Part shown: positions 51,104 to 56,510 of the stretch, one piece after another
How positions within the stretch are numbered: position 1 is the first letter of the stretch
How the letters are laid out: each line of letters starts with the position of its first letter
NCBI RefSeq assembly: GCF_002127965.1
Contig: NZ_CP018787.1
Location: forward strand, 186,001-250,000
Reading direction: 5' to 3'
Length of the DNA stretch: 64,000 nt
Source: Oxalobacter formigenes
Lineage (GTDB): Bacteria > Pseudomonadota > Gammaproteobacteria > Burkholderiales > Burkholderiaceae_D
The notes under the pieces: generated by a model
Seen by the model: only the letters and a program-made list of their open reading frames with translations
Told to the model about the DNA's origin: nothing
Databases searched by the model: none
Position numbers and translations under genes: made by a program

Positions 51104-52672
51104 ATGGAAAACACAGACAACAAACCGGTAACTTCTCTTTTCCATACTGGCATTCTTGAGAACGAATTAAATTCTCCGTCCAGCGTGCCTCCTTCAAAAA
51201 CGGTTCTGGAAGCATGGATAAAAGGGCTTGATGAACTCAGGAAAAAAGACAGCTCCGCCCAATGTTCGGCATTCGCTTTTAGCATTCTCGAAAAACTGCT
51301 GGGATATGACGCCAGTACACTTGAACTGAACACGTCGCCTGACCGTTTTTTCGATATATTCATTAAAAATACCGCCAAAGATGAAACAGGCGCTGCCGTG
51401 AAGATCATTGACGGTTTCGGCATCTCTTCCGCACAGGAAAAGACTTTCCTTGAAAAAGCATGGAAAAACGAGGAAGTCTCAAAAAGCGGGTTTTATCTGA
51501 TGACCAACCTGAACGAAATCCGTCTTTATCCCGCTTCCCGCAAAGAAAAAAGCTTTGAACGTTTCAACCTCACCGACCTTTTGGAAGACGATGCCGCGTT
51601 CAAACGTTTCTACCTGCTGATGAATGCCGACAATCTTATGTCGGGCAAAACGGCAAAATGGCTTCATGAAAGTGCCGTAAAGTTGCTGCAGGAAAAATTG
51701 ACAGGGACTTATCCGACCCTGAAAGAAATGTACGGCCCTGTTTATCAGGGTATTACCACCGGGCTGGACGAAGCTTTCATTGTCGATGAAGCGACCAAAA
51801 CAAAACTGGTTGAAGAAGATCCCCGTTCTGCCGATATCCTGAAACCATTTGCAGATAAACAGGATATCGAAAAATGGGCAACGGAAAGCCGCTCGCTCTG
51901 GCTGATCTATACCCCCGCAAATCTATACAATATCGACGACTATCCGGCCATCAAAAAACATCTGGAATCATTCAGGGATAAACTGGAAAAACGCTCTGGT
52001 ACCCAGAAATGGTATGAGCTTCAGCATGCCGGCGCCCATCCGGAAAAAATGTTCGGCCAAAAGCTCGGTTTTGCGAAAGAATCGGTCAATTCGACTTTTT
52101 CTGTCGATAAATCCGGAGACGTTTTCGGACAGGGCGGTTTTTACACGACCGAATCCGATTACTATCTCGTCGCCTTGTTGAACTCATCCCTGTTCTGGTA
52201 TCTGATCAGGCAGAGCTCAGCCAAAAAAGAAGATGGCGTCTATGAATTGACCGCCACACAGATTGAAAACCTGCCGATTCCGGATGCGCCCGGCCTGATC
52301 CGCGGAAGAATGGGACAGCTCTCCGATTACTGCCAGGACACGGTTCTGACCCGCAACGATCTGGTCAAACATTTCCGGGGCATGACGGCATATAACCTGT
52401 TGCCGGATGGCCTGTCTTCCAAACTGACCCAGAAACTTCATAACTGGTTCGCGCATGAATTCGATGCCTTCCGCTCCGAAATCAACACATCCTTCAATAC
52501 GGATATTGCGGCAGACGATTTGCAGTTATGGAACGATTATTTTTATCAGGAAAGAAAAAAAGTATTCGACCTGAATGCCGACATCGCTCATGCCGAATAT
52601 GAAATCGACCACGTCGTTTACGAACTTTTCGGCGTCACAAGAGATGAGATCGACCTGATCGAAAGACTCTGA
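51104..52672 (+). CDS. Type IIG restriction-modification-like protein lacking the methyltransferase domain
   Basis: 522 residues. The part from about 208 to 410 (GPVYQGITTGLDEAFIVDE, then NSSLFWYLI and TATQIENLPIP) matches the TaqI-type target-recognition domain, and the C-terminal helices end with the usual EIDHVVYELFGVTRDEI. Residues about 30-200 resemble the N-terminal nuclease module of type IIG enzymes (KLLGYD, PDRFFDIF, GFYLMTNLNEIRLYP), but the expected IEAK-type catalytic core reads VKIIDGF, so it looks inactive. The methyltransferase between them, with NPPY and the SAM motif, is absent. The reading frame is intact and codon use looks like its neighbours. It stands alone between dsbA and lipA; its role is unknown. 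Confidence 0.7.
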   Translation: MENTDNKPVTSLFHTGILENELNSPSSVPPSKTVLEAWIKGLDELRKKDSSAQCSAFAFSILEKLLGYDASTLELNTSPDRFFDIFIKNTAKDETGAAVKIIDGFGISSAQEKTFLEKAWKNEEVSKSGFYLMTNLNEIRLYPASRKEKSFERFNLTDLLEDDAAFKRFYLLMNADNLMSGKTAKWLHESAVKLLQEKLTGTYPTLKEMYGPVYQGITTGLDEAFIVDEATKTKLVEEDPRSADILKPFADKQDIEKWATESRSLWLIYTPANLYNIDDYPAIKKHLESFRDKLEKRSGTQKWYELQHAGAHPEKMFGQKLGFAKESVNSTFSVDKSGDVFGQGGFYTTESDYYLVALLNSSLFWYLIRQSSAKKEDGVYELTATQIENLPIPDAPGLIRGRMGQLSDYCQDTVLTRNDLVKHFRGMTAYNLLPDGLSSKLTQKLHNWFAHEFDAFRSEINTSFNTDIAADDLQLWNDYFYQERKKVFDLNADIAHAEYEIDHVVYELFGVTRDEIDLIERL

Positions 52673-52699: not shown

Positions 52700-53674
52700 T
52701 TACTTCACTTCAACGCCTCTGGCCTGCAAATCTGCATGGTAACTCGAGCGAACCATCGGACCGATGGCGGCATGTACAAAACCCATCCTTGTGGCAAGCT
52801 GCCGCCATTTGTCAAACGTCGAAAGATCGACATACCGCAAAACCGGCAAATGGCTGGAAGAGGGCATCAGATACTGTCCAATCGTCAGCATGGAAACCCC
52901 GTGTTTTCTCAGGTCTTCCATGACCTCGATAATTTCCTCATCCGTTTCTCCAAGTCCGACCATCAGCCCTGACTTTGTCGGGACATTGGGGCACCTTTCA
53001 CCAAAGGCTTTCAGCAGATTCAGGGACATCGAATAATCGGCCCCGGGTCGAGCCTGCAGGTACAAACGCGGAACCGTTTCAAGATTATGGTTGAAAACAT
53101 CAGGCGGGTTCTGGCAAAGCGCGTCAAGTGCCCTGTCCACTTTCCCCCGGAAATCTGGCGTCAGTATTTCAACCCGGGTATTCGGGGAATGCAGTTTGAT
53201 TGCCCTGATGCATTCCCCGAAATGGGAAGCCCCTCCATCGCGCAAATCATCCCGGTTGACTGAAGTGACAACGACGTAAGACAGGCCCAGAGCCGATATG
53301 GTTTTGGCGAGTCGCAGAGGTTCTTTTTCATCGAGCGGATCAGGACGGCCATGTGCAACGTCACAAAAAGGACAGCGACGTGTACACCTGTCGCCCATCA
53401 CCATGAAAGCGGCTGTCCCGTTCCCGTAACATTCTCCCCGGTTCGGACAACTCGCTTCATCACAAACCGTTACGAGTTCCTGTTCCTTCAACAGGTTTTT
53501 AACTTCATGAAAATGGGATGAATACGAACCGGCCTTTACCCGAATCCATCCCGGTTTGGGCAATTTTTCAGCGGGCTGGATCTTTATGGGAATGCGCGCT
53601 GTTTTCAGCGCTCCTTTTTGTCTGTGAATGTCGCCATTCGACGGGACTTTCGTTCCTGAATCTTTTTCAGACAT
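52700..53674 (-). CDS. lipA: Lipoyl synthase
   Basis: Radical-SAM enzyme inserting sulfur into octanoyl-proteins to make lipoate; 324 residues. It shows the auxiliary cluster cysteines in [12 protein letters not shown] and the radical-SAM CxxxCxxC in [17 protein letters not shown]-like [12 protein letters not shown] and GETDEEI follow, and the end SSYHAD is standard. Immediately downstream (22 bases) of lipB in the lipB-lipA order. Confidence 0.96.
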
Positions 53675-53695: not shown

Positions 53696-54391
53696 TTATT
53701 GTTCCCGCGTCAAATCCAGCCTGGTGGCCAAGGCATCGACCAGTTCGGACTGAATGTCTTCAAGACAGCAATCGATACCAAGCGATTTCATATCAGTGAC
53801 GCTCAATCCCGCATATCCGCACGGATCGATCCATGTAAAGGGTTCAAGATCCATGGCAACATTCAATGCCATTCCATGATAAACGGTCCCGTTGCTTTTG
53901 ACCTTCAGGCCCAGCGCCGCAATCTTGGCGCCCTGATGGATGCCATACTCCGGCAGCTGCGGAATGTAAATGCCCGGCGCTCCGGCACGTCGTTCACCAA
54001 TGATATTATGGCTAGCCAGTACATCGATGATGGCCGCTTCAATTCTGAAAACCAGCTCGCGCACGAGCAATTTATCTTTAAAGCGCCGGCGCAAATCAAT
54101 GAGGGGATAAACAACCGCCTGCCCCGGACCGTGATAAGTGACTTCACCACCCCGGTCTGTCTGGACAACAGGTAACTGATGGGCATTCAGGATATGGGAC
54201 ATGTCGGCCGCCTGACCGAGGGTAAAAACAGGCTCATGCTCCACAACCCATATTTCATCCGGTGTTTGCCTGTTACGACACACGGTAAACTCGCGCATTT
54301 TCTGAAAAACAGCTTCATACGCCATGCGACCGAGCCGTTTGACAATCAACGGGACAGCGGCAGTCTTATCGTTCACACAGGCGTTTTCCAT
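53696..54391 (-). CDS. lipB: Octanoyltransferase LipB
   Basis: Transfers octanoate from ACP to lipoyl-dependent proteins, 231 residues. Signatures: DRGGEVTYHGPGQ, the lysine in AALGLKVK, HGMALNVAMDLEPF, and the catalytic cysteine in WIDPCGYAG. Follows DUF493 by 20 bases; the three genes form one unit with the DacA-like gene upstream. Confidence 0.95.
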   Translation of the reverse strand: MENACVNDKTAAVPLIVKRLGRMAYEAVFQKMREFTVCRNRQTPDEIWVVEHEPVFTLGQAADMSHILNAHQLPVVQTDRGGEVTYHGPGQAVVYPLIDLRRRFKDKLLVRELVFRIEAAIIDVLASHNIIGERRAGAPGIYIPQLPEYGIHQGAKIAALGLKVKSNGTVYHGMALNVAMDLEPFTWIDPCGYAGLSVTDMKSLGIDCCLEDIQSELVDALATRLDLTREQ

Positions 54392-54411: not shown

Positions 54412-54684
54412 TTAAAGGACAATCTTCACCATCGGATGGGAAGACAAGGCTCTGTACAGGTTATCGAGTTGCTCCCGGCTGGTTGCCTTGACCGTCGCCG
54501 TCAGGGAAAGATAGTTACCCTGCGAAGACAAACGCATACCAAGCGTGGTGGCATCGAAAAGAGGATCGTGCAAACGAATGACGTCTGTCATTGTCTGGGC
54601 AAAATCGTCTCTTTTTTCTCCCATGATCTTGATCGGGAAATCACAGGGATATTGGATGGGATCTTCATTGCAACCGCAGCTCAT
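54412..54684 (-). CDS. DUF493 (YbeD-like) protein
   Basis: Small ferredoxin-fold regulator-like protein of 90 residues found between dacA and lipB in many proteobacteria. It contains YPCDFPIKIMG and ends in SSHPMVKIVL, both family features. A cysteine-rich start (MSCGCNE) is present. Function not established. Confidence 0.92.
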   Translation of the reverse strand: MSCGCNEDPIQYPCDFPIKIMGEKRDDFAQTMTDVIRLHDPLFDATTLGMRLSSQGNYLSLTATVKATSREQLDNLYRALSSHPMVKIVL

Positions 54685-54696
54685 AATGGACTCCTT

Positions 54697-55842
54697 CTAT
54701 TTAAACCATAACCGGATAGTATCCCAGATTATGCCCAGAAAACTGGCTACATTGATCTGCTCCAGCGCAAGCACAGGCAGCTCGGCAATGACTTTATCAC
54801 CAACGAGTATCTTCAGTACACCCACCTGTGATCCTTCATTAATTGGGGCGATCAGTGGATCGTTTCGTTCCAGCACCGTTTTAAGCCGGGATATTTCCCC
54901 TTTCGGGACCGATACATAGGTATCGACATTAAACCCGATATCGACATCCCCGCTTGATCCTTTCCATACTTCTGGCGATGCGACAACCTGATTTTTTTCA
55001 TACAACCTGATCGTATCGAAGTTCTGGAATCCCCAGTTCAACAGCTTCAGACTTTCCTGCGCCCGGGCCTGATCAGATACGGCACCGACGACAACGGACA
55101 GCATACGGCGTTCCCCCAGAATACTGTCGCGTCGGGCAGAAACGACCATACTATCCCTCACACCGGCAGAAGCCACAAGGCCATCTACCGTTGGATCGAC
55201 CCACAAAAGCCGGTTGGGATTGCGCTGGGTGATTTTGTTATAAGTGAATTCCCGCGTGGAAAAACCGGAATAATAATCAGGGTAGTCACGCATCAGATTG
55301 ACTGCCAGTACCGACAAGTCATTCGGTGTTGAATAGCTGTCCTTATCGGCCGTTTCGTATGGATGCGTAAAATTTGTCGATTTCATCCCCAGACGAACCG
55401 CTTCCCGATTCATCAGGTCAACGAATGACTTTTCGTCTCCGGAAACGGCCAATGCGAGTGTCAGCGCAGCATCCTCGCTCCCCTGAACAATCAGCCCGTC
55501 AAGCAGTTGCTGTATCGTCACTGAACTGCCCGGCTGAAGGAACATTCTGGGACCGCCCGATTCCATTGCACCGATTTCATCACTGACAGAAACAGTCTTG
55601 TCCAGATTCAGCTTTCCATCCTTTATCGCGCCAAAAACAAGATAAGCCGTCATCAGGCGGGCAGGCGTCCCGGCCCTGATACGTTCCTGACTGTTACTGG
55701 ACGCCAGAACCTGATTGCTGACGACATCGATCAGCAGCCACGATCTCGATGTGAGTGTCGGGGCAGCTACACCGGCGGCATGGACGTTAAAGAGAAAACA
55801 CCAGAAAAACAGGAATAAAACGACGAACTTGCTTTTTTTCAT
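54697..55842 (-). CDS. DacA/PBP5-family protein with all three catalytic motifs replaced (probable pseudoenzyme)
   Basis: Exported protein of 381 residues built like D-alanyl-D-alanine carboxypeptidase PBP5, with a signal peptide (about 1-24), a transpeptidase-like domain, a C-terminal PBP5_C domain and an amphipathic C-terminal helix (FLGIIWDTIRLWF) that anchors it to the membrane. The active-site motifs are changed: SxxK, usually in PASLTK, reads AGTPAR (Thr59, Arg62); SxN, usually QSGNDA, reads QGSEDA (121-123); and KTG, usually VDGLKTG, reads VDGLVAS (223-225). Flanking sequence is well kept (LMTAYLVF, FTYNKITQ, RLLWVDPTVDG, SQKLLNWGF-like, EVWKGS). It should not bind penicillin covalently or cleave peptide. 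The frame is intact and it heads the dacA-DUF493-lipB-lipA unit. Start at 55842 is chosen over 55890 to keep the signal peptide. Confidence 0.88.
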   Translation of the reverse strand: MKKSKFVVLFLFFWCFLFNVHAAGVAAPTLTSRSWLLIDVVSNQVLASSNSQERIRAGTPARLMTAYLVFGAIKDGKLNLDKTVSVSDEIGAMESGGPRMFLQPGSSVTIQQLLDGLIVQGSEDAALTLALAVSGDEKSFVDLMNREAVRLGMKSTNFTHPYETADKDSYSTPNDLSVLAVNLMRDYPDYYSGFSTREFTYNKITQRNPNRLLWVDPTVDGLVASAGVRDSMVVSARRDSILGERRMLSVVVGAVSDQARAQESLKLLNWGFQNFDTIRLYEKNQVVASPEVWKGSSGDVDIGFNVDTYVSVPKGEISRLKTVLERNDPLIAPINEGSQVGVLKILVGDKVIAELPVLALEQINVASFLGIIWDTIRLWFK

Positions 55843-55886: not shown

Positions 55887-56510
55887 TCAATGATGGAAAA
55901 CGGTGGTGATGATATTACGAATATGGTGCAGTTTATGATTGAAAAGATGATCGGCACCAGCCACAACCACAACGGACAAATCCTGCGGTCGCGCCCAGTT
56001 GAACACATCCGGCAAGGGAACGACTTCATCCAGTTCGCCATGAATCAGCAATGTATCGGCAGGAACGGAATCGACGGCCCACTTTCCGGCTGTGGCACTT
56101 ACAAATACCATTCGTTCCGGTGGTTGGCCTTCCGCTGCGAGTTTCTGTCGCAATCTGGACTGGACGTAAGTTCCAAATGAAAAACCGCCAAGAACGACAG
56201 GCAAGCCGGGATATTGTTTTTTGATATGGTCGAGAAGAACGGCCATATCGTCGGTTTCACCATTCCCGAAATCGTGCGAGCCTTCAGAAGCGCCAACTCC
56301 CCGGAAATTCATGCGTACAGCGATATAGCCCAGCGCGACAAACGTTCTCGCAATCATCTGGACCACTTTATTGCTCATTGTTCCGCCATAAAGCGGATGA
56401 GGGTGAGCGATCAAGACAATGCCCGACGGATCTGCTTTTGGCAAATCCAGCGCACACTCCAGTTTTCCGGCTGCTCCGGTAACAAAAAATAATTGAGTGT
56501 CTGCATTCAT
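55887..56510 (-). CDS. Alpha/beta hydrolase (dienelactone-hydrolase-like)
   Basis: Cytoplasmic serine hydrolase of 207 residues. It shows the oxyanion region AHPHPLYGGTMSNKVV, MNFRGVGASEG, the nucleophile serine in GGFSFG, and a catalytic Asp and His at GELDEVVP and GADHLF. The fold is common and the substrate unknown. It precedes the DacA-like gene on the same strand, 44 bases away, and is followed upstream by a palindrome. Confidence 0.85.
   Translation of the reverse strand: MNADTQLFFVTGAAGKLECALDLPKADPSGIVLIAHPHPLYGGTMSNKVVQMIARTFVALGYIAVRMNFRGVGASEGSHDFGNGETDDMAVLLDHIKKQYPGLPVVLGGFSFGTYVQSRLRQKLAAEGQPPERMVFVSATAGKWAVDSVPADTLLIHGELDEVVPLPDVFNWARPQDLSVVVVAGADHLFNHKLHHIRNIITTVFHH

Follow-up and report, generated by a model that had tools for sequence, protein, structure and literature searches.

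Does a penicillin-binding protein (PBP) that has lost its catalytic residues keep a job in the cell, and if so, which part of the protein does the work? DacA (PBP5), PBP6a (DacC), and PBP6b (DacD) are class C low-molecular-weight PBPs of peptidase family S11. The window, a stretch of 64,000 nucleotides from the genome of the gut bacterium Oxalobacter formigenes, encodes a DacA protein that raises this question; PBP5 is a textbook enzyme and the main trimmer of the cell wall. Annotation by homology only would label it an active D-Ala-D-Ala carboxypeptidase. The original prediction, made from the window's sequence, held that its three catalytic boxes are gone.

The dacA gene and its predicted protein

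The window dacA gene is part of a block that also contains DUF493, lipB, and lipA (Table 1). Its upstream neighbour is presumably a hydrolase-like gene, and the names lipB and lipA are partly our own assumption. A 522-residue open frame (51104-52672, plus strand) lies between a DsbA-like gene and lipA, and we take it to resemble the C-terminal part of restriction-modification proteins.

Table 1. Features of the dacA locus, with coordinates numbered within the window
Feature	Coordinates	Strand	Basis or remark
dacA pseudoenzyme gene	54697..55842	-	381 aa; open frame; Pfam S11 and PBP5_C
Signal peptide, residues 1-23	55774..55842	-	by eye, hydrophobic stretch
Former SxxK box, now TPAR, residues 59-62	55657..55668	-	sequence and alignment
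Former SxN box, now GSE, residues 121-123	55474..55482	-	sequence and alignment
Former KTG box, now VAS, residues 223-225	55168..55176	-	plus 2-residue loop deletion
PBP5_C domain, residues 275-363	54754..55020	-	Pfam; absolute omega unchanged in dead clade
C-terminal amphipathic helix, presumed membrane anchor, residues 365-381	54700..54750	-	model helix 368-380 and hydrophobic moment
Hydrolase-like gene (presumed) upstream of dacA	55887..56510	-	same neighbour in G004-G006 and G049
DUF493 gene downstream of dacA	54412..54684	-	name from the original prediction
lipB	53696..54391	-	name from the original prediction and presumed
lipA	52700..53674	-	name from the original prediction and presumed

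Translation and alignment with Oxalobacter relatives confirm the predicted reading of TPAR, GSE, and VAS in an uninterrupted frame of 381 residues. Thr59-Pro-Ala-Arg62, Gly121-Ser-Glu123, and Val223-Ala-Ser225 occupy the SxxK, SxN, and KTG positions, respectively, and the KTG loop is short by 2 residues, with a gap whose placement varies between alignments. In active enzymes, the KTG box holds the carboxylate of the substrate. None of the three motifs of an active DD-carboxypeptidase is present. Family knowledge supports the predicted inability to acylate, as no canonical chemistry would be left, and it is close to certain, judging from the motifs, that the protein is catalytically dead.

The same protein retains the marks of S11/PBP5 descent. 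Pfam matches cover Peptidase_S11 (156 bits, residues 24-254) and PBP5_C (77.5 bits, residues 275-363), and phmmer matches P. aeruginosa PBP5 (E 4e-64) with full-length homology. Its place in the gene block, its predicted fold, and its amphipathic C-terminal helix point the same way; the hydrophobic moment of this putative membrane anchor is reached by 1% of shuffles. An AlphaFold2 model built from 42 sequences has a mean pLDDT of 86 and a pTM of 0.83, with low confidence at residues 1-21. Besides the ends, its weakest ten-residue block is 221-230, the former KTG strand. The top three Foldseek matches are PBP5 of E. coli and P. aeruginosa and PBP6 of E. coli, with TM scores of 0.80-0.82 by query length. 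The window DacA is predicted to keep the PBP5/PBP6 fold, in a model that rests on an alignment of active relatives and says nothing on stability. Pfam, AlphaFold2, and the gene block together uphold the claim that fold (as a prediction), PBP5_C, anchor, and operon position are kept.

Distribution of box loss

Loss of catalytic boxes is rare among the wider relatives of the window DacA. Contigs were scanned with two peptide patterns that omit the catalytic residues, and in the DacA loci of the best 80 of 585 relatives, SxxK is kept in 79, SxN in 80, and KTG in 80. Burkholderia multivorans WS-FJ9 (L114) has ALTK for SLTK, with SGN and KTG intact; this is a single contig and perhaps an error. A contig labelled Alistipes senegalensis (L036, JAMPER010000001.1) carries an Oxalobacter dacA whose ends match G007, and the label is probably wrong.

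Among the 13 Oxalobacter genomes surveyed, all boxes are present in the full DacA of five (G001, G007, G008, G011, and G012), where DUF493 adjoins dacA by coordinates, and both covered boxes are intact in a DacA fragment, all that is found in G009. All three boxes are gone in the window genome (G000), G002 (72% complete), and G003, with TASK/GAD/MAT in G002 and TASK/GGD/FAT in G003; the Lys of SxxK survives in these two and not in the window genome, which has Arg62. The frames of all three dead species are open, with no stop or frameshift. A further species, G010, has lost two boxes (GMAQ and TAT, with SGN intact). Three species (G004, G005, and G006; 91, 87, and 99% complete) have no dacA in its place: there the next gene after the hydrolase-like one is DUF493, and a PBP5_C search of their genomes gave no match.

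DacA was also searched for in 294 genomes of the family, with boxes outside Oxalobacter read in the low-scoring tail and in two genomes of genus g38. The 22 genomes of that tail comprise 16 with a near full-length DacA, one with DacA split in two frames, one with a fragment, and four unmatched. Of the near full-length proteins, 15 of 16 have intact boxes; the last, from the g38 genome G049 (L161, 2125-3315), keeps SLTK and SGN and has ITA for KTG. Its gene sits in a full hydrolase-dacA-DUF493-lipB block, and by its motifs it is a possible intermediate of box loss. The DacA boxes of its g38 mates G071 and G089 are intact. In G055 (L156/L158), dacA is divided between two frames near query residue 263, which may reflect a frameshift or a fault in the assembly. 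Two family genomes that are 99% complete (G236 and G277) have no DacA match at 1e-30 and do have other S11 proteins.

The shared changes fall largely at the former active site. Across 77 wide and 8 intact Oxalobacter rows, 96 columns are conserved, 22 of which are changed in the window DacA when its K, T, and G columns, gapped in that alignment, are scored as changed. In all three dead species, 17 of the 96 are changed: 12 of 15 in the motif segments versus 5 of 81 elsewhere (Fisher p = 4e-9, with segments drawn after the table was seen). The predicted concentration of change at the active site stands insofar as 12 of the 17 shared changes lie in motif segments; it does not stand for the rest of the catalytic domain, the whole of which is relaxed, as described below.

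History of loss

The species tree rests on a concatenation, gaps included, of the proteins LipA, LipB, DUF493, ArgS, hydrolase-like, DsbA, and PbpG. It joins the three dead and the three dacA-less species in a single clade (100/99), while G010 groups with the intact Oxalobacter species (100/99) and G049 belongs to another genus. Within the six, support for the dead trio as a clade is 77/70 (88/85 in an earlier tree), and the dacA-less species may lie inside the trio.

At sites that are conserved elsewhere, the dead trio has derived residues in common (T59, P98, G121, P173, and I363), and an acidic residue replaces Asn123 in all three. By parsimony, these shared residues most likely place the box loss on the stem of the trio, as a single loss before its species split. 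Selection measured since then would accordingly act on a protein that was already dead.

The losses outside this clade, in G010 and G049, likely have a separate origin. A single origin for all seven Oxalobacter losers is rejected (p-AU 0.00045) in a data set that adds g38 as a near outgroup, omits some far rows, and takes a longer contig for G010, and it is not rejected with farther outgroups (p-AU 0.072); the G010 branch in these tests is long and the outgroup rows contain many gaps. All box losses observed in Oxalobacter and g38 include KTG, and it is the only box lost in G049, which hints that it was the first to go in these genera. The ALTK protein of B. multivorans is an exception to this order outside the two genera.

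The original prediction proposed testing whether the substitutions are conserved across the genus. They are not: only one clade shows complete loss, and the partial losses elsewhere are probably separate. Close relatives with intact motifs, named there as evidence against the reading, do occur outside the clade, and within it two other species lack the boxes and three lack the gene. A sequencing error or frameshift was likewise considered there and is contradicted by the same loss in two related species with open frames.

Selection on the dead protein

Selection was measured with a branch-class codon model in which DacA, in two parts, and seven other genes were fitted jointly with shared neutral branch lengths; a rerun converged on the same values. 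The rows left out were G009 (a fragment), G004-G006 (no gene), and G011 and L035-L037 (nearly the same as retained rows, judging by their ends, or from one lineage with them). Omega values, rough because synonymous sites are near saturation and the G010 branch is at the upper bound of the fit, are 0.027 on intact branches, 0.30 on the stem, and 0.131 in the dead crown (n = 3 sequences) for the catalytic part. The corresponding values are 0.069, 0.283, and 0.074 for the C-terminal part (PBP5_C and anchor), and 0.098, 0.155, and 0.055 for six pooled control genes. The fall in control omega from 0.098 to 0.055 shows that there is no lineage-wide relaxation.

Both parts of the dead protein are constrained. 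An omega of 1 in the crown is rejected with 2dlnL values of 411 (catalytic) and 252 (C-terminal), in line with the dN/dS constraint that the original prediction had proposed looking for. Crown and intact omega differ in the catalytic part (2dlnL 93) and not in the C-terminal part (2dlnL 0.1, p = 0.77), which was raised on the stem (p = 4e-6); the conditional tests fix branch lengths, so their significance is overstated. In absolute omega, the catalytic domain is relaxed about five-fold, and only on this absolute scale is the level of the C-terminal part unchanged. Set against the controls, the relaxation is about two-fold in the C-terminal part and about nine-fold in the catalytic part. The claim that the protein shows no general decay survives in absolute terms for the C-terminal part, at 0.069 to 0.074, and not for the catalytic part, at 0.027 to 0.131. 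The relaxation appears when neutral branch lengths are shared with the controls and the two domains are separated; a fit of DacA by itself rejects an omega of 1 and does not separate the branch classes (2dlnL 3.0, 3 extra parameters).

Protein distances show the same partition. Dead pairs (n = 3) differ by 0.52-0.65 in the catalytic part versus 0.25-0.35 in the C-terminal part, and intact pairs (n = 5, with the G001-G007 pair outside the five) by 0.025-0.10 versus 0.08-0.28; in four of these five, the values are 0.09-0.10 versus 0.20-0.28. Relative to controls, C-terminal distance is 1.2-1.5 in dead pairs versus 0.5-1.0 in intact pairs. Identity within the dead trio is 72-79% in the PBP5_C base and anchor versus 50-65% in the head. 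That selection has retained the dead DacA is well supported by these codon and protein comparisons.

Other cell-wall enzymes

DacB, a family S13 enzyme, is present with STMK, SNN, and KTG in all three dead species, and its boxes are likewise intact in G049 and G010. The three dacA-less species (L033, L032, and L034 for G004-G006) gave no S13 match and retain only PbpG among the carboxypeptidase and endopeptidase classes searched. PbpG keeps SxxK, SEN, and KTG, in the dead species as well, and its KTG is also present in G004.

PbpG evolved faster on the stem that leads to the dead trio, and its rate afterwards fell back to the normal level (L001; L013, L014), with omega values of 0.044 on intact branches, 0.233 on the stem, and 0.044 in the crown. 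The omega of DsbA is raised on that stem too (0.33). Wall hydrolases may have been rewired at this point.

Several candidate substitutes or causes were rejected. The original prediction raised the possibility of a second intact dacA in the same genome, and none was found: the window DacA is the only PBP5_C match there, and the only other S11 match is PbpG-like, with SVTK, SEN, and KTG. A VanY-type carboxypeptidase is no substitute, with VanY domains in 0 of 13 Oxalobacter genomes. Loss of L,D-transpeptidases is no cause either; YkuD was found in one of the 13 genomes (G010) and is missing from the other 12, and because these include species with intact DacA, its absence does not track box loss.

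Function of the dead protein

The best explanation is that the window protein is a DacA (PBP5) pseudoenzyme whose non-catalytic role is tied to its fold, base, and anchor, a reading that we favour with some reserve. DacB would take over the DD-carboxypeptidase work. The dead DacA would stay in the wall-synthesis machinery as a folded component that is anchored in the membrane and does no catalysis. Through its base, anchor, and overall fold it could, for instance, occupy or organise a partner close to the growing wall, and so serve as a scaffold or competitor near wall synthesis. The dead catalytic head would then be a structural domain and not a substrate-reading one. We infer this role from the pattern of constraint; the three clade species without dacA indicate that it is not indispensable there.

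A broader version of this explanation is that the PBP5_C base and anchor do a catalysis-independent job in wall growth that is general to DacA proteins, which would make the clade a natural separation-of-function experiment. Chemistry would have been handed to DacB, leaving the second function alone under selection. Apart from carrying the catalytic head above the membrane, PBP5_C has no settled role, and we regard this generalisation as tentative.

The main rival holds that the protein is a relic on its way out. DacA would be dispensable in these species and kept by its embedding in the operon and by the cost of a misfolded secreted protein, with no positive function. Such a course fits the three clade species that lack dacA and DacB as well, the separate partial losses in G010 and G049, the relaxed catalytic domain, and the somewhat relaxed C-terminal part relative to control genes. 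It fits less well with frames that have stayed open in three species over deep divergence, at omega values of 0.13 and 0.07 that are far from 1. Moreover, if the only pressure were to avoid misfolding, it is not obvious why the C-terminal part would be spared and the head relaxed five-fold. We consider a relic possible but doubtful.

The original prediction also suggested that the pocket might bind pentapeptide without cutting it, so that the protein reads D-Ala-D-Ala stems as a sensor. A persisting predicted fold and the surviving SxxK Lys of G002 and G003 are compatible with this, but KTG is gone in all three dead species and the pocket itself is not conserved. Pocket segments, chosen with the changed columns in view, are 50-64% identical in the dead trio versus 94-100% in the intact quartet. 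Within the dead trio they vary no less than the remainder of the catalytic domain (57-65% identical). Their omega is 0.60 on the stem and 0.144 in the crown, compared with 0.24 and 0.128 for the rest of the domain. This variation makes conserved ligand reading unlikely. In E. coli, PBP5 S44G is reported to be more evenly dispersed and to lose its substrate-driven, septal localisation (PMC2909392). A pentapeptide sensor is therefore improbable.

An enzyme of altered activity whose site has been rebuilt, perhaps with Thr59 as nucleophile, is more improbable still. Thr59 and an acidic residue in place of the SxN Asn are common to all three dead proteins. However, the window protein has Arg in place of Lys62, KTG now reads V/M/F-A-S/T, one species has a shorter loop, and no new constellation of residues is conserved. 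A sequencing or assembly artefact or a plain pseudogene, with next to no probability, is rejected: the genome is a single contig, two further genomes show this loss with different codons, the frames of three species are free of stops and frameshifts, and omega is far below 1, with omega = 1 rejected.

The pseudoenzyme explanation implies that DacA/PBP5 chemistry has been switched off in nature while the protein was kept, with the strongest remaining constraint on PBP5_C and the anchor. Oxalobacter offers apparently active, dead, and absent DacA side by side for comparing peptidoglycan and cell shape.

Comparison with known systems

The window DacA resembles the S11 PBPs DacA/PBP5, PBP6a, and PBP6b in its full-length homology, predicted fold, PBP5_C domain, amphipathic C-terminal helix, and gene neighbours, and differs from them in lacking all three catalytic boxes. 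Its catalytic domain evolves faster than its C-terminal part in the dead species, the reverse of the pattern in intact Oxalobacter relatives.

Pseudoenzymes in general keep an enzyme fold under selection after catalysis is lost. Unlike these, the window protein is the sole DacA found in its genome and not a duplicated copy. It also differs in that the loss has probably recurred within its group and that three species of its clade lack the gene. A DacA pseudoenzyme as the only DacA of its genome, in a group with probably repeated box loss, is probably new. No naturally dead DacA was found in the open-access literature at the level of titles and the starts of abstracts, a scope that most subscription papers fall outside, nor among the matches listed for Oxalobacter peptidoglycan and carboxypeptidase at the same level. 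The word carboxypeptidase is absent from the available main text of an O. formigenes proteome paper (PMC4764995), as is the word peptidoglycan from the available part of a comparative Oxalobacter genome paper (PMC9812493). In the portions available, "catalytically inactive" refers to engineered or intended mutants in PMC13059705 and PMC12818604. A PDB entry titled as a YxkC-DacA model is, by that title, a lead that DacA proteins have partners.

The closest counterparts are engineered. E. coli PBP5(S44G) and PBP6b(S63A) are reported to be anchored, inactive DacA proteins, a description that also fits the window DacA by sequence (PMC2909392, PMC4916385). In an E. coli mutant without PBP4, PBP5, PBP7, and PBP6b, PBP5(S44G) worsened the shape defects, as did dead PBP6b, while dead PBP6a had no effect (PMC4916385). 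Dead E. coli PBP5 neither complements shape nor localises as the wild type does (PMC2909392, PMC4916385). Since dead PBP5(S44G) is not neutral in these accounts, a dead DacA can affect the cell without chemistry. The E. coli proteins are laboratory point mutants, whereas the natural protein also lacks SxN and KTG and, unlike them, had probably lost its activity before at least three species diverged.
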